Below are positions 15,421 to 27,039 of a DNA stretch of 38,732 nt, in pieces. The translations under genes and the position numbers were made by a program. The notes beneath the pieces are model-generated. The model worked only from the letters and a program-made list of their open reading frames with translations. It made no database searches and was not told the DNA's origin. Numbering within the stretch: the stretch's first letter is position 1; each line of letters opens with the position of its first letter. The stretch is from a virus. The stretch covers positions 1-38,732 of IMG/VR virus record IMGVR_UViG_3300046517_002961, one strand, 5' to 3'.

Positions 15421-16920
15421 TCACCCCATCCACGACTGACTAAACCCGCTAAACGCTGGCTGCGGCACCGGCTCCTCTTTCCGCTTCTTCGCCACCGTCT
15501 GCGCAAACGTCAGCGCCAGCGCGTCCCCCTCATCCGGGCTTGGCACGTCCCGCGCCTTCATCTCCTTCTTGCTCTCCAACCATACGCGCTGTTTCAAATC
15601 CTCCCGCAAGCCGGGCGCCGTGAGGTCGTTCTCCAGCCGCGGCGACGTATCAATCGCTCCGTTGACCAACCAATCCTTCATCCGGCCCCACATCAGATCC
15701 CGCATATACCGATATTTCTTGTCTGGCGAATCCGCGCCAAAGTTCACTTCAAGCAGGTTCGTGTAACCAAGCTCTCGGAGGCGCGTCCCGATGCTGCCGG
15801 CAATGCCGGCACTGTCGAGGAACAACATAGATACACGATGTCCTCCGTAGGTTCCACCCAATACGTCAGAGAGACGGTTGGTGAGCACCGAAGGGTCACG
15901 CGTGAGTTCGCCGGCAATACGGATAGCAGGGATTGCGCGAGCATCGCGCCCTCTTCTAAATCTGATGACGTTGGAATCCTTACCCCCCCATGCCAAATCG
16001 CATCCAGCGACCAGCGGTTCATCATCCAGCACCTCCACCTTGCGCTTCTGCGCATCCCGCACCCTGATCGCATCGATAAACTGCGCATCTTCCGCATTCG
16101 GCGGCAGCCCTCTGACGCGCACCCGGAAGCGGTCGCTGTCCTCGCCCCAGTCTTCCAACTGCTCCGCAATCAGCCCCTTATTCGGAAACTGACACGTCCG
16201 CGCATCGATCACCCAGGTCTTCCACCCGCGCCCCTTCCCGGCGAACACGATGTCATGAAAGCTGCCGCGGCGCCGCGTCGGGTTGCCAAACAGGAACTGC
16301 ATGGCCTCGCCATCCGTCAGACCGCCCTCTTGCACCTCGTGGATGACCTCAGGGACGTTCGAATCCTCGTCGTTGATGTAGAAGCTGGTCGACGCCGCGT
16401 TGTGCTGCCCCGCGAAGCTCTCGCTGTTATCCGGGTCGCACGTCTGCGGGCTGCACTTCCATTCCGCGCGATGTCCCGTCCGATACATGATGCTCGTGTT
16501 GATCTCGAACCAGTCGGCCGTGATGGCCCGCTTCGCCCATGTCGTAATACTCGGCCACGTCTTGTCTTGCAGCTGCGGGCCTGTGTTCGCCGTGATGACG
16601 CCTTTCGCATGGCGCCTGGTCGACATCAGGAACGCGACGAGCATCCCCGTCAATGCGCCCTTGCCGATGCCGTGACCGCTCGAGACGGCCGCGCGAATGG
16701 GCATCACCGGATGCACGCCATCAAAGTCGCGTGTCTTAATCTCGTGCCCGAGCCACTCGAGGAATTCGCACTGCCAGACGTCCGGCTCGTGGTAATGCTT
16801 CAGCGGACCGTCTTCACCCCACGGGAAGGCGCCCATGACCCAGGCGAGTGGCTCCTGATACATCGACGCGCACCAGTCCACGAGGTCATCGTCGTAGCTG
16901 CGCGAGGTGGACGGCATCAT
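15421..16920 (-). CDS. terL: Terminase large subunit
   Basis: Encodes 499 residues and is the packaging motor. The N-terminal ATPase has a Walker A variant SGHGIGKG at residues 81-88 and a Walker B-like FYINDEDSNVP at 180-190. The C-terminal RNase H-like nuclease shows GCDLAWGGKDSN with D308, LFLDSAGI with D369 and SPDEGDALAL with D463/D466. Two ATGs, at 16920 and 16917, are possible starts. The first begins one base after the encoded CCA of tRNA-Gln and overlaps the stop of the tRNA-spanning ORF as ATGA. There is no Shine-Dalgarno sequence. Cleavage at the tRNA 3' end would leave it nearly leaderless. Confidence 0.93.
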   Translation of the reverse strand: MMPSTSRSYDDDLVDWCASMYQEPLAWVMGAFPWGEDGPLKHYHEPDVWQCEFLEWLGHEIKTRDFDGVHPVMPIRAAVSSGHGIGKGALTGMLVAFLMSTRRHAKGVITANTGPQLQDKTWPSITTWAKRAITADWFEINTSIMYRTGHRAEWKCSPQTCDPDNSESFAGQHNAASTSFYINDEDSNVPEVIHEVQEGGLTDGEAMQFLFGNPTRRRGSFHDIVFAGKGRGWKTWVIDARTCQFPNKGLIAEQLEDWGEDSDRFRVRVRGLPPNAEDAQFIDAIRVRDAQKRKVEVLDDEPLVAGCDLAWGGKDSNVIRFRRGRDARAIPAIRIAGELTRDPSVLTNRLSDVLGGTYGGHRVSMLFLDSAGIAGSIGTRLRELGYTNLLEVNFGADSPDKKYRYMRDLMWGRMKDWLVNGAIDTSPRLENDLTAPGLREDLKQRVWLESKKEMKARDVPSPDEGDALALTFAQTVAKKRKEEPVPQPAFSGFSQSWMG

Positions 16921-17165
16921 TTGGCTGAGGATGTTGGAATCGAACCAACGACTTCGACGTTCAAAGCGTCGCGCTCTCCCACTGAGCTAATCCCCAATTT
17001 TTCGATGAGCGCCTTCGCTGCGATCATCTCATCACAAAATGAATCACATCCTTGATCGCGTGGGTTATCGCATTGTTCAACGACGTCCACGAGCGCCTTC
17101 AGCGCGGCGATGAGTTCGTCTCGTTCTTCCATCATGGCTTCAGCGTTAGCACTGCCTGACGTCAT
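16917..17165 (-). CDS. Small ORF that reads through the tRNA gene
   Basis: Encodes 82 residues. Residues 1-56 look like an ordinary small helical protein: MMEERDELIAALKALVDVVE, two Cys (CDNPRDQGC) and EMIAAKALIEK. Residues 57-82 are the tRNA-Gln sense strand read in frame (LGISSVGERDALNVEVVG and onward). The start overlaps the upstream stop as ATGA and the stop overlaps the terminase ATG as ATGA, so translational coupling spans the tRNA. It may be a real gene whose 3' end was replaced by, or co-opted from, the tRNA. Alternatively only the 5' part is real, or the frame is accidental. Confidence 0.5.
   Translation of the reverse strand: MTSGSANAEAMMEERDELIAALKALVDVVEQCDNPRDQGCDSFCDEMIAAKALIEKLGISSVGERDALNVEVVGSIPTSSAK
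16922..16996 (-). tRNA. tRNA-Gln (anticodon UUG), CCA encoded
   Basis: A 75-nt cloverleaf that closes completely. The acceptor is TGGGGAT pairing with ATCCTCA, with one G-U. The D arm is GCTC/GAGC, the anticodon arm is CGACG/CGTCG around loop CTTTGAA (anticodon TTG), and the T arm is GTTGG/CCAAC around TTCGATT. Discriminator G73 and the U1-A72 pair are the known bacterial tRNA-Gln identity features. The 3' CCA is encoded. It lies one base upstream of the large-terminase ATG on the same strand. Confidence 0.95.
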
Positions 17166-19637: not shown

Positions 19638-19760
19638 CTACTCTACCTTACTCGCAGCGGCTTCGCTCTGTTCGTTTCCTACCAACTGCGCGCGCAGCCA
19701 CTCAATCGTCTCAATCATCATCAGCTGCTTCGGCGTGAATTGAAACACTTTATGGAACAT
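19638..19760 (-). CDS. Short fragment homologous to the C-terminus of the DUF559-like nuclease
   Basis: Encodes 40 residues from ATG 19760, with GGAAGC directly upstream. FQFTPKQLMMIETIEWLRAQ matches LQFTPKQLQSIEAIDVIRRA at the end of the nuclease encoded at 20192-20623. It lies immediately after, and overlaps, the HNH gene that separates it from the nuclease. It may be a translated small protein or the leftover 3' end of a nuclease gene displaced when the HNH gene arrived. Confidence 0.5.
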   Translation of the reverse strand: MFHKVFQFTPKQLMMIETIEWLRAQLVGNEQSEAAASKVE

Positions 19761-20256
19761 GCTTCCAATTCCTGCGGATTCCGATGTAACGAATAGCCAC
19801 TTTAGAAAGGCCGTAATCGCGCCCAATTTGTGATAGCGACTGTCCAGCGGCGATCCGCTGCCTAATGATGGGGACATCCGCAGCGGTTATTTTCGCGGTA
19901 TTGACGTCCTCGCCTTTCGCGCGCCGCTCTGGCCGAGTTCGTGCGCCGAGTGCCTGTCGGCCTTTGCGATGACAATCCACGCGATTATCTTTCGCGGTGC
20001 CGAGAAACAGATGACTGGGGCGCACGCACAACGGCACATCGCAATGGTGGCAAACCTGCAATCTGTCAGGAATAGGGCCAATATTCCACACATAACTTAA
20101 GCGTGATGCCGTCCATTGAACGCCATGCAGCTTAAAGGCGCCATATCCGTTCTGTGATCTAGCGCCCACCCAGAGCCAGCACGTCTCGGTTTTATTTACC
20201 TTCGCCCAGAATCTGGTCAGGGCTGGACCGTTGCGTAAGCGCGCGTCGAATGACAT
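19750..20256 (-). CDS. HNH homing-type endonuclease with C-terminal DNA-binding helix
   Basis: Encodes 168 residues from ATG 20256, with AGAGG six bases upstream. The N-terminal HNH_3-type domain shows RFWAKVNKTETCWLWVGA, RLSYVWNIG, and the metal/zinc core VCHHCDVPLCVRPSHLFLG. The C-terminal part (KITAADVPIIRQRIAAGQSL, SQIGRDYGLSKVAIRYI) is a helix-turn-helix that would give site specificity. It overlaps the 3' end of the DUF559-like gene by 65 bases and runs ten bases into a second copy of that 3' end. This is the signature of a free-standing homing endonuclease. Confidence 0.88.
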   Translation of the reverse strand: MSFDARLRNGPALTRFWAKVNKTETCWLWVGARSQNGYGAFKLHGVQWTASRLSYVWNIGPIPDRLQVCHHCDVPLCVRPSHLFLGTAKDNRVDCHRKGRQALGARTRPERRAKGEDVNTAKITAADVPIIRQRIAAGQSLSQIGRDYGLSKVAIRYIGIRRNWKHVP

Positions 20257-20623
20257 CAATAGCCTCTATGGACTGTAGTTGCTTGGGAGTAAATTGGAGA
20301 ACGATGAACCCCTCTAATTGCGCGAGATTCAGCTTCTCGTAATCGCGCTGGAGGCCTTTGCGCGTGCTGTGGTCGCGGAAGCCCTGCTGCTCGACGGCGA
20401 CCTTCGCGCAGGGCCAGGCGTAATCGAAGCGAAAATCACGATCTGGTAAAAATAGGACTTCTCGAGCGGGGATGGGGAGCTTCGCCGCGGCGCAGAGCTC
20501 AAGGAAGCGGTCGAAGGGCTGCGTGTAGGGGCGCAGAGGCAAGGGGAGGGGCGGGGCGAGGCCATCCATGCGCCGGCGGAAGGCGGCATATTCTTCGACC
20601 GTCCACCGCAGGCCGTTAGGCAC
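20192..20623 (-). CDS. DUF559-like PD-(D/E)XK nuclease
   Basis: Encodes 143 residues from GTG 20623. The longer frame to 20788 conflicts with the well-supported upstream gene. RWTVEEYAAFRRRM precedes the nuclease core: FDYAWPCAKVAVEQQG supplies the D and E/Q of the active site and DYEKLNLAQLEGFIVLQFTP the later Lys region. This resembles Vsr/DUF559-type endonucleases. It may act as a resolvase or debranching nuclease in replication or packaging. The HNH gene starts inside its 3' end. Confidence 0.7.
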   Translation of the reverse strand: MPNGLRWTVEEYAAFRRRMDGLAPPLPLPLRPYTQPFDRFLELCAAAKLPIPAREVLFLPDRDFRFDYAWPCAKVAVEQQGFRDHSTRKGLQRDYEKLNLAQLEGFIVLQFTPKQLQSIEAIDVIRRALTQRSSPDQILGEGK

Positions 20624-20828
20624 GCACCGGCCAATCGTTTTCACCCCACGGGAGCACGTCGTCGCCGGGTGCGCGCCGCTGACGAGGCCGAGGTTCATCA
20701 ATGGGTTCATGTTGATGGATGGGGCAGAATCCCGAAGCGTCAGCCAGCGCAAGGCAGCGCCATTCCACATATGTATCGGCAAGGCCATTCAACAACCCTC
20801 GATGCAGAATCTTTTGACAACTAGCCAT
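20616..20828 (-). CDS. Small Cys/His protein
   Basis: Encodes 70 residues from ATG 20828, which has a strong AAGGGGG five bases upstream. MASCQKILHRGLLNGLADTY is followed by EWRCLALADASGFCPIHQHE, giving a C-C-C-H set suitable for zinc. The C-terminus is charged. It overlaps the next start by eight bases. Probably a regulator or nucleic-acid-binding protein of the early region. Confidence 0.65.
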   Translation of the reverse strand: MASCQKILHRGLLNGLADTYVEWRCLALADASGFCPIHQHEPIDEPRPRQRRAPGDDVLPWGENDWPVRA

Positions 20829-21721: not shown

Positions 21722-23005
21722 ATGGCCTTTGTCGTCTGGCATGTGCAAGATCCGGACGGGAAACCGATTGGCGGCGCCGTCGTCAGTGGGACATCGACCA
21801 CGATGGGCGACTGGTCGGCCGTCACGAATGCCTGCGGCGATTGCAAAACGTCACTCGGCCCGGCCATGTATACCATGACGTTTCAAGCCTATGGGTTTGT
21901 GACGCGCACGTATCCGGCGGCGATTGCCGACAGCGGCGAAATCATCACGGGCCTCGAACGCGGGGCCGCGACGTTGCCTTTTCCGCCGCCCACACGGGAT
22001 GAAGCGCTCGCCATCCGTGTGGGCTTTCAGGGCGAGACGGTGATCACGAACGAATTCGGCAGCTTCCCGGCGTTTGGCCCCGAGACGACGTCGCTATCCG
22101 ATAACGATTTGCATTCCTATTGCGCCCAGCTCGCGGCTCGAGGCTGGACGCACGGCGAGATTGCGATCAGCTGGGAATATGATGAGCCGCGATTCCTCAT
22201 GCCGGTGCCGGGACGCGATCTGACGGGCGATCTGCCCGAGCTCGCACGGCGCATCGTGATCATGTTGCAGCACTTCAAAGCCGTCTGCGTGTTTCTCGCA
22301 GGCGATGGCATGAGCGCGAAGCCGAATCCAGATGGGACGTATCCCTACAATGATCCGACTGGACACACCTATGGGTATGAGTGGCTGGGGCAAGCCTTTC
22401 CGCACATCGGGACGTATCTCAAAGAGGGCAACCCCTATGGTGATCTCACACAGTATTGTGTCTTTGTTCCCGGCTACGATGGTGTCTTCTACGGGTGGGG
22501 CATTCCCGGGGAGATTCCAGACCAGCAGCCAGATCGTGTCGTCAACTTCGGCCAATTATTTAGGTCCGTCCTTCCTGACGGCTATTTGGGCATCGAACAT
22601 TCTACGGGGAAAATTCCTGTAGGCGAAGGCGGGAGTGATTGGGCAGCGAATGGCCGGATGATGGTCTACGATGCCGTGTTGTCTGAATTCACCTGGCCGA
22701 CGACGGGGGGCCAAGTTTGGCAAGTCGTGCATCGGCTCATTCAGCCTTACAACATGCCACCCGATCAACAGGCGGCGATTGACGCAGGGCCAGGCGCACC
22801 GGGAAGCGCGCAAGAAGCACTCTACAAACAGGCCAACGACATCAATCCGCCGTTTTATCTGGGGCACGACAATCCGCGCGGCCCCATCTTCTATTGCGCC
22901 TATGAATATGCGACCTATCAGTGGACGCGCGGCCAGGTGACGGCCGAGCAAGTGCAAAACTCCCGTGATTACTTCTCGGTCATGGGCTGTCAACACGTGT
23001 GTTAG
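21722..23005 (+). CDS. Ig-like (carboxypeptidase-regulatory type) plus TIM-barrel-like protein
   Basis: Encodes 427 residues. AGGAG seven bases upstream supports the ATG. Residues 1-80 form a CarboxypepD_reg-like fold (VQDPDGKPIGGAVVSGTSTT, YTMTFQAYGFVTRTYP). The rest alternates strands and helices as in glycoside-hydrolase barrels, with acid-bearing strand ends such as EIAISWEYDEPR, VFLAGDG, FVPGYDGVFYGWG and LGIEHSTG. I cannot assign a family or confirm catalytic pairs. Position next to holin-like genes fits an endolysin or host-surface glycosidase. A fibre protein is the alternative. Confidence 0.65.
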   Translation: MAFVVWHVQDPDGKPIGGAVVSGTSTTMGDWSAVTNACGDCKTSLGPAMYTMTFQAYGFVTRTYPAAIADSGEIITGLERGAATLPFPPPTRDEALAIRVGFQGETVITNEFGSFPAFGPETTSLSDNDLHSYCAQLAARGWTHGEIAISWEYDEPRFLMPVPGRDLTGDLPELARRIVIMLQHFKAVCVFLAGDGMSAKPNPDGTYPYNDPTGHTYGYEWLGQAFPHIGTYLKEGNPYGDLTQYCVFVPGYDGVFYGWGIPGEIPDQQPDRVVNFGQLFRSVLPDGYLGIEHSTGKIPVGEGGSDWAANGRMMVYDAVLSEFTWPTTGGQVWQVVHRLIQPYNMPPDQQAAIDAGPGAPGSAQEALYKQANDINPPFYLGHDNPRGPIFYCAYEYATYQWTRGQVTAEQVQNSRDYFSVMGCQHVC

Positions 23006-24288: not shown

Positions 24289-24425
24289 GCCAAACATTTG
24301 AAGTCATGCGAATGCTCTGCAAATGGTGCAACTCCCCTTGCTGGCTTGGTGTTAAGGCATACGCCTATGGCCTCGCGCCGGAATGCTTCGACTGCTGGCT
24401 GTCTCATCAGGAGAAGCGCAAATGA
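24285..24425 (+). CDS. Small Cys-rich protein
   Basis: Encodes 46 residues from ATG 24285, which has GGGGA five bases upstream; an ATG at 24249 is possible. MSQTFEVMRMLCKWCNSPCW followed by ECFDCW gives five Cys in a CxxC-CxxC pattern. It overlaps the exonuclease-annealase ATG as ATGA. Probably a zinc knuckle of unknown role. Confidence 0.6.
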   Translation: MSQTFEVMRMLCKWCNSPCWLGVKAYAYGLAPECFDCWLSHQEKRK

Positions 24426-25993
24426 ACGACAAGCAAATCGTCCTCGTCGACTTCAGCAGCATTGCCCATCCGATTTGGCATATGGCCGCGAGTGATCCGA
24501 ATCCGGACGCCACGTCCATCGGCATCATCGCGAAGGTGCGGGCCCTGACATCTGGCCAGCCACATGCCGCCATCTGCTTGGACAGCAAGGCGAGCTTCAG
24601 GAAGGAGCTGGATGCGACCTACAAGGCAGCGCGCGAATCAAAGCCCGCCCCGTTTTTCCATCAATGCGCACTCGCCATTGAGGCGTTGAAGGGCGACGGG
24701 TTCCCGCTGTGGGAGGCGTATGGCTTCGAGGCCGATGATGTCATCGCCAGCACCGTGCATCGCTTGCGTGACTACCCCGCTATCATGCCCGTGCTCATCG
24801 TCAGTGCCGATAAGGATTTGCTGCAGTTAGTGACGGAGCACGTCAGCGTGAAGTCGCCCGTGACTGGCAACGTGATGGACCAGGCCGCCGTGCGCGAGAA
24901 ATTCGGCGTCGATCCGCAGCAGATGGGTGACTACCTGACGCTTGTCGGGGATGCGAGCGACGGCGTTACTGGAGCAAAGGGTGTTGGCTCGAAAACGGCT
25001 GCTGCGCTGCTCAATACTTATGGCAATGTCGATGATATCTACGCAGCTATGGATATTGGGGCGGCGACGACCACGCCCGCGCAGACTAAGAACATGCAAG
25101 ACTTCCGCGAACGCCTGCCGATTGTGCGCCAGTTGATTGCCCTGCGCACTGATGCGCCTATTGACTTTGCCGCCGTGCTGAAGGACCGTCAGCCGACCGA
25201 TAGCGAGGATGAGATTATGCAGGACATCGAAGACGCGATGCCGACGATTGAGAGTGACCTCGGCTATCAATACGACGTGGCAAAAACTGCTAAAGTGGCG
25301 CGCGAAAATGGCGCGGCGTCTGGCCTCGGTCCGTTGACAGCCGTGAACATTAAGCCGCCATCCGCCACAGATTTGCGCGATTACGCATTGAAGTCGGGAG
25401 CCATCAACGTGCCGCCGGGTTCCTCAGCACAAGAGGTCATCGGTCGGCTGGTGCCAGAGCAGGAAGACACCCAACCACCGCGCATGTCGCTCGTGCCGGT
25501 CAACGGCGATTACGAACGGCAACTGGAGCCGCAGAGCATGAATCAAGCCGTTCAGTTGGCGCAATTGCTGTTCAAGGCGCGACTGTTTAGTGCCTACGGC
25601 ACGCCAGAGGCGGTATTGAGCACGGTCCTCTCAGGGCGCGAATTAGGCCTCTCCGCAATGGCCAGCCTACGGGCCTTCCACATTGTCGAAGGCAAGCCCA
25701 CGATGGCCGCTGATGCCCTGCGTGCGCTCGTGCTGAAGTCTGGGAAGGCGAAGTATTTTCGTTGCACAGAACGCACAGCGGAACGTGCGACATTTGAAAC
25801 CCAGCGCGGTGACGATCCACCGTTCTCGTTGTCGTATACCGTCGCTGAAGCCCAAGCCGCAGGCGTGGTCAAGCCCAATAGCGGATGGGTGAAACACAGT
25901 GCAGACATGTGCATCGCGCGGGCCTCGTCAAAACTGGCGCGGCTGGTTTACCCTGATGTCGTCGCGGGCCTGTATGCGCCTGAGGAATTCTGA
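24422..25993 (+). CDS. Fused FEN-type 5'-3' exonuclease and RecT-like annealase
   Basis: Encodes 523 residues from ATG 24422, with AGGAG eight bases upstream. Residues 1 to about 215 are a 5'-nuclease: VDFSS (D10), CLDS (D54), FEADD (E103-D106), SADKD (D130, D132), GDASD (D177, D180) and helix-three-turn-helix GVTGAKGVGSKTA. The metal-site acids appear intact. A linker of variable charge follows (about 250-355). Residues 365-523 match RecT-family annealases: SMNQAVQLAQLLFKARLF, GRELGLSAMASLRAFHIVEG, then YTVAEAQAAG and YPDVVAGLYAPEE. The frame is unbroken. The natural job would be resection plus strand annealing for replication or recombination. Separate proteins are the norm for such pairs. 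Confidence 0.85.
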   Translation: MNDKQIVLVDFSSIAHPIWHMAASDPNPDATSIGIIAKVRALTSGQPHAAICLDSKASFRKELDATYKAARESKPAPFFHQCALAIEALKGDGFPLWEAYGFEADDVIASTVHRLRDYPAIMPVLIVSADKDLLQLVTEHVSVKSPVTGNVMDQAAVREKFGVDPQQMGDYLTLVGDASDGVTGAKGVGSKTAAALLNTYGNVDDIYAAMDIGAATTTPAQTKNMQDFRERLPIVRQLIALRTDAPIDFAAVLKDRQPTDSEDEIMQDIEDAMPTIESDLGYQYDVAKTAKVARENGAASGLGPLTAVNIKPPSATDLRDYALKSGAINVPPGSSAQEVIGRLVPEQEDTQPPRMSLVPVNGDYERQLEPQSMNQAVQLAQLLFKARLFSAYGTPEAVLSTVLSGRELGLSAMASLRAFHIVEGKPTMAADALRALVLKSGKAKYFRCTERTAERATFETQRGDDPPFSLSYTVAEAQAAGVVKPNSGWVKHSADMCIARASSKLARLVYPDVVAGLYAPEEF

Positions 25994-26397
25994 TGACCGC
26001 TTACGAATTAGAAACGGTCGGGCTCCTGAAACGCATTGACGCCACGCTGGCGGAGTTGCTGGCGCTGTCCAAGTCGAAGCGTGCCGCAGCCCCCCTGCCA
26101 CCGGCCGCGATTGACTTGGAAGGCCCTTACGGCGATCCGATCATCAAGGCGAAGGATCCGCGCGACTGGCCCGGGCCGTCAATGAGTGGGCGTCACCTGT
26201 CCGAGTGCCCGCCGGATTACCTCGACCTGTTGGCTGCGCGCTATGACTACTTCGCCGGCAAGGAAACGGACGAGAAGAAGAAGCGGTATGCCGTCATCGA
26301 TGCCGCGAAGGCGCGGGCCTGGGCGGCACGGCTGCGGAGCGGCTATCTGCCGAAGCCCGCTGAGCCGATGGTTGAGAGCGGGGACATCAAATGGTGA
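25993..26397 (+). CDS. Conserved-looking phage protein coupled to the recombination gene
   Basis: Encodes 134 residues. Start overlaps the previous stop by one base. An N-terminal helix (ELETVGLLKRIDATLAELLA) precedes a segment with YGDPIIKAKDPRDWPGPSMS and SECPPDYLDLLAARYDYFAG, then a basic helix. I recall similar proteins beside phage recombination genes. A function as recombination or single-strand DNA partner is inferred from position only. Confidence 0.7.
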   Translation: MTAYELETVGLLKRIDATLAELLALSKSKRAAAPLPPAAIDLEGPYGDPIIKAKDPRDWPGPSMSGRHLSECPPDYLDLLAARYDYFAGKETDEKKKRYAVIDAAKARAWAARLRSGYLPKPAEPMVESGDIKW

Positions 26398-26561: not shown

Positions 26562-26698
26562 CGTCCTGCATTTTGTGCCAGCAGACCGGCAAGATGGTCA
26601 CGCGGGGGCCGGATGAGCAGTCCTACTGGTGCTTAAGGTGTCTCAAGGCGTGGTTTTTTGAATTCTATCAATCACTTGGTCAGCCGAGGCAAATGTGA
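26558..26698 (+). CDS. Small zinc-knuckle protein
   Basis: Encodes 46 residues: [17 protein letters not shown], then [18 protein letters not shown]. This is a CxxC-CxxC zinc site with an aromatic C-terminus. It is coupled to both neighbours. Role unknown. Confidence 0.6.
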
Positions 26699-27039
26699 CA
26701 ATCCTTAGAAAGCCCATTGGCGAACGCTTTTGGCCGCGCGTGGATAAATCTGGTGATTGTTGGATATGGACAGGCACTGTAAATAGCAAGGGGTATGGGA
26801 AGGTCTCTTGCGGTGGTCATCAAGGCCGAATGCTCTATACGCACCGTCTGGTGTGGGAATTCGTAAATGGGGTCATTCCAGATGGTTCGTTGGTATGTCA
26901 TCACTGTGACAATCCGCGCTGCGTCAACCCAGCACATCTCTTCCTAGGCACCCCCTTCGATAACAGCGCGGATATGCAGAGAAAGGGTCGGGCGAAATTT
27001 GGTGGCCGAAACCATGCACCGCGAGAGGCCAATCCATGA
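26695..27039 (+). CDS. HNH endonuclease, second copy type
   Basis: Encodes 114 residues from GTG 26695. [30 protein letters not shown] and the core [19 protein letters not shown] belong to the same HNH_3-like family as the gene at 19750. No C-terminal helix-turn-helix is present, so it is shorter. Base composition is visibly more AT-rich than its neighbours, suggesting recent arrival. It is threaded into a coupled operon without breaking it, overlapping both neighbours by a few bases. Confidence 0.88.

Follow-up and report, generated by a model that had tools for sequence, protein, structure and literature searches.

Can a single viral gene encode both the 5' exonuclease and the strand annealase of a phage recombination system? 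In published accounts, the exonuclease and the annealase are two distinct proteins (PMC5052646, PMC7496540, PMC9772228), in agreement with what a sequence-only reading of the present locus had stated about known phage systems. The same reading claimed that here the two activities are joined in an unbroken frame of 523 codons. We analyzed the whole stretch of DNA containing this frame (hereafter the window), an IMG/VR virus record of 38,732 bases. The source virus is known from metagenome DNA alone and is probably a soil phage. The frame was indeed unbroken over its full length (Table 1), and an alternative upstream ATG at 24383 would yield a product of 536 aa.

Table 1. Coordinates of the fused gene, its predicted parts and the gene that follows it in the window
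Feature	Position	Strand	Evidence or remark
Fused FEN–RecT gene, 523 aa	24422..25993	+	ATG start, TGA stop; full-length homologues in IMG/VR
Shine-Dalgarno AGGAGA for the full-length gene	24409..24414	+	Sequence; 7 nt 5' of the ATG
FEN/T5-type 5' nuclease domain, residues 4-258	24431..25195	+	Pfam, invariant acids, PDB fold matches, residue alignment
Helix-3-turn-helix (HhH) segment, residues 182-212	24965..25057	+	PF14520, E 9e-4, 20.1 bits, below the cut-off of 27
Flexible linker, residues 259-364	25196..25513	+	pLDDT mostly about 45-60
Candidate internal start: gaggatgag as Shine-Dalgarno (25205-25213), ATG in frame (25217)	25205..25219	+	Suggestive; free annealase of 258 aa predicted
RecT/Redβ-type annealase domain, residues 366-523, up to the stop codon	25517..25990	+	PHROG, AF2, Redβ 7ujl as top match
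134-aa gene, translationally coupled	25993..26397	+	TGATG overlap with the stop codon of the fusion; homologues likewise placed in about 15/45 loci

AlphaFold, supplied with 50 diverse aligned relatives, returned two confident domains (residues 1-255 and 365-523, mostly >90), and the residues between them (260-360) were mostly of low confidence. The chain is laid out as a FEN-type 5' nuclease, a disordered linker and a RecT/Redβ-type annealase. With separate profiles, one per half, we identified in IMG/VR 73 distinct open frames that, like the window protein, have both domains and have them in this order; at 60% identity they fall into 44 clusters. The fusion recurs in viral metagenomes, where the sequence-only reading had proposed to look for it. 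We are nearly certain that nuclease and annealase form a two-domain architecture in a single chain.

The N-terminal half had been read as a FEN/T5-type exonuclease with all metal-site acids and a helix-three-turn-helix, and both parts of this claim held. Two Pfam families were matched above their curated cut-offs, PF02739 at residues 6-162 (E 1e-28) and PF01367 at residues 163-251 (E 5e-22), and each was matched by 50 of 50 fused members at E 0.01 or better. The metal-site acids D10, D54, E103, D105, D106, D130, D132, D177 and D180 were invariant across 50 diverse fusions, as were R60, Y67, K68 and R71. Fold matches were obtained with E. coli ExoIX (Z 28, TM 0.90 on the target), plastid exonuclease 1, M. 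smegmatis FEN, T5 FEN (Z 25) and the Taq 5' nuclease; for ExoIX, T5 FEN and Taq, Z spanned 20-28. ExoIX, the nearest fold, lacks several metal acids that the window protein has in the residue alignment, and over the aligned stretch the window protein carries the complete acid set of Taq; its two-metal active site is complete. The helix-three-turn-helix segment, whose match to PF14520 is below cut-off, falls within the PF01367 match and the FEN fold matches. Judged from its sequence, the N-terminal half is a FEN-type 5' nuclease with intact catalytic residues and predicted activity.

When the whole model was used for the fold search, FEN matches alone were returned; hence, the annealase domain was modeled and searched separately. 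The C-terminal 158 residues alone were predicted with a pLDDT of 94.4 and a pTM of 0.85, and the model contains the annealase fold (a predicted β-hairpin, helix, three-stranded sheet and long helix). λ Redβ (7ujl, 5e-5) was the sole Foldseek match below 1e-3, with Listeria RecT (7ub2) ranked second, and VIA-align against Redβ gave Z 9.0 over 130 of the 158 residues. When the sequence profile of the domain was compared with the PDB, Redβ alone was found (E 1.1e-5), and the match ran through the conserved region from a Trp (W489) to the final Glu-Glu. In PHROGs, residues 369-522 matched the RecT-like annealing proteins phrog_4171 (E 9e-16) and phrog_561 (E 4e-14). Pfam RecT (PF03837) gave no match to the window protein at E 1, and matched 31 of the 50 fused relatives. 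Motifs GRELGLSAMASLRAF and YPDVVAGLYAPEE both lie within this domain. The RecT-likeness proposed for the C-terminal part is thus supported by the PHROGs, Pfam and Redβ profile matches, and structure prediction yielded the annealase fold there.

The C-terminal region of Redβ takes part in exonuclease binding (PMC5052646), and a 2024 survey of SSAPs describes an N-terminal annealing domain and a C-terminal region for partner proteins (PMC11783212). In the window protein the annealase itself sits at the C-terminus. The tail beyond the annealase core measures 0-15 aa in all 44 fused clusters, compared with 61-189 aa in free RecT. The fusion inverts the SSAP layout: its N-terminus is occupied by the nuclease, and the docking region has been lost.

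Cultured phages encode their relatives of the window annealase as separate genes. In the majority of the phage loci inspected, recT lies directly downstream of an exonuclease gene annotated as RecE, exonuclease VIII or Cas4. Loci with an exonuclease followed by RecT were those of Gordonia phages Wizard and Howe (in Howe, with an HNH gene between the two), Microbacterium Appa, Arthrobacter Vibaki and Mufasa8, Propionibacterium Anatole, Mycobacterium Luna22 and Thermobifida P1312. RecT had no such annotated neighbor in Salinibacter phage 2_1, Komagataeibacter phiKX1 or Verrucomicrobia P8625. In an unfused IMG/VR relative (L042), the gene upstream of RecT belongs to Pfam YqaJ. The order in most of the free relatives, nuclease and then RecT, is the domain order of the fusion. 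The order is reversed in another IMG/VR relative (L128, 4522-6744), where separate recT, HNH and FEN genes have overlapping or nearly overlapping ends; RecT and FEN were confirmed by Pfam and HNH was assigned from the sequence. In the tree, the FEN of this locus branches with those of polymerase I and with free-standing phage FENs.

We consider it probable that the window protein is a single-polypeptide phage exonuclease–annealase ('SynExo') recombinase that couples resection to annealing. At ends or gaps in phage DNA, the nuclease would resect the 5' strand; the tethered annealase cores would be placed on the 3' single strand as it emerges and would oligomerize there (presumably as a ring). 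The annealase would then pair the 3' strand with a complementary strand, leading to recombination, concatemer formation or repair. In such a scheme the covalent tether would replace the docking of λ exonuclease by the Redβ C-terminal domain, and the FEN-type nuclease would stand in for the λ-Exo type. An SSB gene lies directly 3' of one fused relative (L094).

Nucleases of the FEN class also act as flap endonucleases and in primer removal, and roles other than resection are therefore possible. The main rival is post-annealing flap trimming, in which the annealase targets a flap endonuclease that trims 5' flaps after annealing at replication forks or gaps, with no prior resection of ends. Redβ-type annealases work on the lagging strand, and the closest solved nucleases (ExoIX, M. 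smegmatis FEN and T5 FEN) are flap endonucleases, both of which suit this rival. However, gene order and the loss of the docking domain both show a parallel with exonuclease–annealase pairs, and no separate resecting nuclease was recognized among the window genes covered by a non-exhaustive scan. We regard flap trimming as unlikely. Less probable still is a role in primer removal during phage DNA replication, with the annealase domain serving merely as a tether to ssDNA. The closest family names of the nuclease, DNA polymerase I 5' nuclease and PRK14976, point in this direction, but no DNA polymerase was recognized among the window genes scanned, and the annealase core is kept whole, including the elements that align with Redβ, which exceeds the needs of an ssDNA tether. 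The chance that the fusion is an assembly artefact or a fortuitous joining of neighboring genes is negligible: no point in its favor was found, and the 73 distinct fused frames come from many separate metagenomes with identities down to about 30%.

These independent full-length homologues, on dozens of contigs, rule out misassembly, a frameshift or a chance joining. Neither of the two outcomes that the sequence-only reading had named as refuting it was seen, since the C-terminal part also has an annealase fold. The fusion is real and shared by dozens of related uncultivated phages. No single place covering 80% of the protein was found in 50,697 GenBank phage records or in 72,556 plasmids. Among 794 bacterial genomes of two phyla, RecT-like matches were present in 7, all unfused. 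A scan of genome contigs for the fusion gave FEN-domain matches only, mainly of the polymerase I type, so prophage copies of the fusion may exist.

Divergence in the FEN half tracks divergence in the annealase half (r 0.83 over 2,485 pairs), apart from a few swaps at the linker. Two relatives (L033, 6831-8492, and L035, 3175-4647) share 99% identity in the annealase and 54% in the nuclease, a contrast that suggests domain swapping at the linker. In the trees, a single label change suffices for the fused FENs and likewise for the fused annealases, with weak support (57/87 for FEN and 70 for RecT), and each tree is weakly consistent with a single origin of the fusion.

The linker varies from 37 to 201 aa among relatives, and in the window it contains a Shine-Dalgarno-like stretch followed by an in-frame ATG (Table 1), from which a free annealase may also be made. 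An ATG is comparably placed in 20 of the 44 clusters (ATG only), and 16 of the 44 have no ATG in the first 25 linker codons. In-frame ATGs were frequent in these 25 codons, and a strong Shine-Dalgarno match accompanied 15 of 43; the corresponding numbers were 2 of 41 for the remaining linker, 7 of 154 within the FEN domain and 5 of 272 within the annealase. A synonymous shuffle of the whole linker gave no significant signal for an internal start (160/500). For the first 25 codons, a stretch picked after inspection, the mean strength was reached in 21 of 1000 synonymous (codon-choice) shuffles, and the observed counts were never reached when codon order was shuffled (0/1000 and 0/2000). The acidic peptide encoded there accounts for much of the signal. 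The evidence for an internal start is suggestive only, given the post hoc choice of the stretch, the acidic peptide and the 16 clusters that lack an ATG there.

With a FEN on each annealase subunit, the oligomer could become crowded unless a free annealase is also made, and such a product would remove this stoichiometry problem. It is possible, though we hold it doubtful, that the gene encodes a two-for-one recombinase: the fusion plus a free annealase from the ATG at 25217, with a few nuclease-bearing subunits seeding oligomers of free annealase. The FEN-type nuclease would then replace nucleases of the λ-Exo type in a self-contained system of uncultivated phages.

The sequence-only reading was also correct that the following gene, for 134 residues, is coupled to the fusion, as their TGATG overlap shows; of the third partner that the reading saw as possible in it, the analysis supports no more than a conserved, coupled neighbor. 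Its product gave no family match and no match in GenBank phages, and carries the motif PRDWPGPSMSGRHLSECPPDYLDLLAARYDYFAGK. Two HNH_3 endonuclease genes flank the recombination region on opposite strands (19750-20259, minus; 26695-27039, plus). The gene at 20192-20788 (minus) encodes a 198-aa protein of phrog_503, and several loci have homologues of it close to the fusion. The 427-aa protein encoded at 21722-23005 (plus) has an N-terminal stretch that resembles a carboxypeptidase-regulatory domain (29 bits, below the Pfam cut-off); homologues of this protein lie near the fusion in 6 loci, and it is unusual for a replication/recombination region. A tRNA-Gln (ttg) gene at 16922-16996 (minus) adjoins the terminase large subunit gene (15421-16920).

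In the standing model for λ Red, the annealase is loaded directly onto the strand made by its exonuclease (PMC9772228, PMC5052646), and most work has treated the two enzymes separately (PMC7496540). With a naturally occurring covalent fusion, the direct-loading model becomes testable by cutting the linker, killing the nuclease or changing the length of the linker. The fusion further indicates that (i) a different nuclease fold may be able to fill the exonuclease role; (ii) there is an exception to the N-terminal placement of SSAP annealing domains; and (iii) dsDNA recombineering in laboratory bacteria gains a candidate that is compact and encoded by one gene. In the literature searched, whose coverage is incomplete with many subscription papers outside it, no description of a FEN–annealase fusion was found; the fusion is apparently unreported so far and a variant of the exonuclease–annealase recombinases.

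Among known systems, the closest cultured-phage relatives of the annealase are RecT proteins that follow a YqaJ/RecE/Cas4-type exonuclease in actinophages and others, as in Gordonia Wizard (pair gp53-54), Microbacterium Appa (pair 38-39) and Thermobifida P1312. There the nuclease gene likewise lies directly upstream of recT and usually overlaps it, but the genes are separate, the nuclease is annotated as RecE, exonuclease VIII or Cas4, and RecT has a C-terminal extension. The L128-type locus resembles the fusion in having RecT and FEN in one operon-like cluster, but they are unfused and in reversed order. T7 gp6 is a FEN-family 5' exonuclease that acts in phage recombination and works with the strand-annealing gp2.5; these are separate proteins, and gp2.5 is an OB-fold SSB rather than a RecT/Redβ annealase. 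The earlier statement that the nuclease of known systems has another fold is therefore true of λ and Rac, but fails as a universal rule, given T7 gp6 and the separate RecT and FEN of L128. λ Exo/Redβ and RecE/RecT likewise encode a 5' nuclease together with an annealase of the RecT/Redβ class, and Redβ is the nearest solved structure to the annealase domain of the window. SynExo systems comprise a 5'-3' nuclease and an annealase as one encoded unit, and both predicted domains lie here in one gene; they are also two separate interacting proteins, whereas the window and its relatives have a single open frame. The λ and Rac systems use two proteins, another nuclease fold (toroidal λ Exo, RecE) and a C-terminal docking domain on Redβ; in contrast, the window protein is one chain with an N-terminal FEN-type nuclease and without the C-terminal domain.
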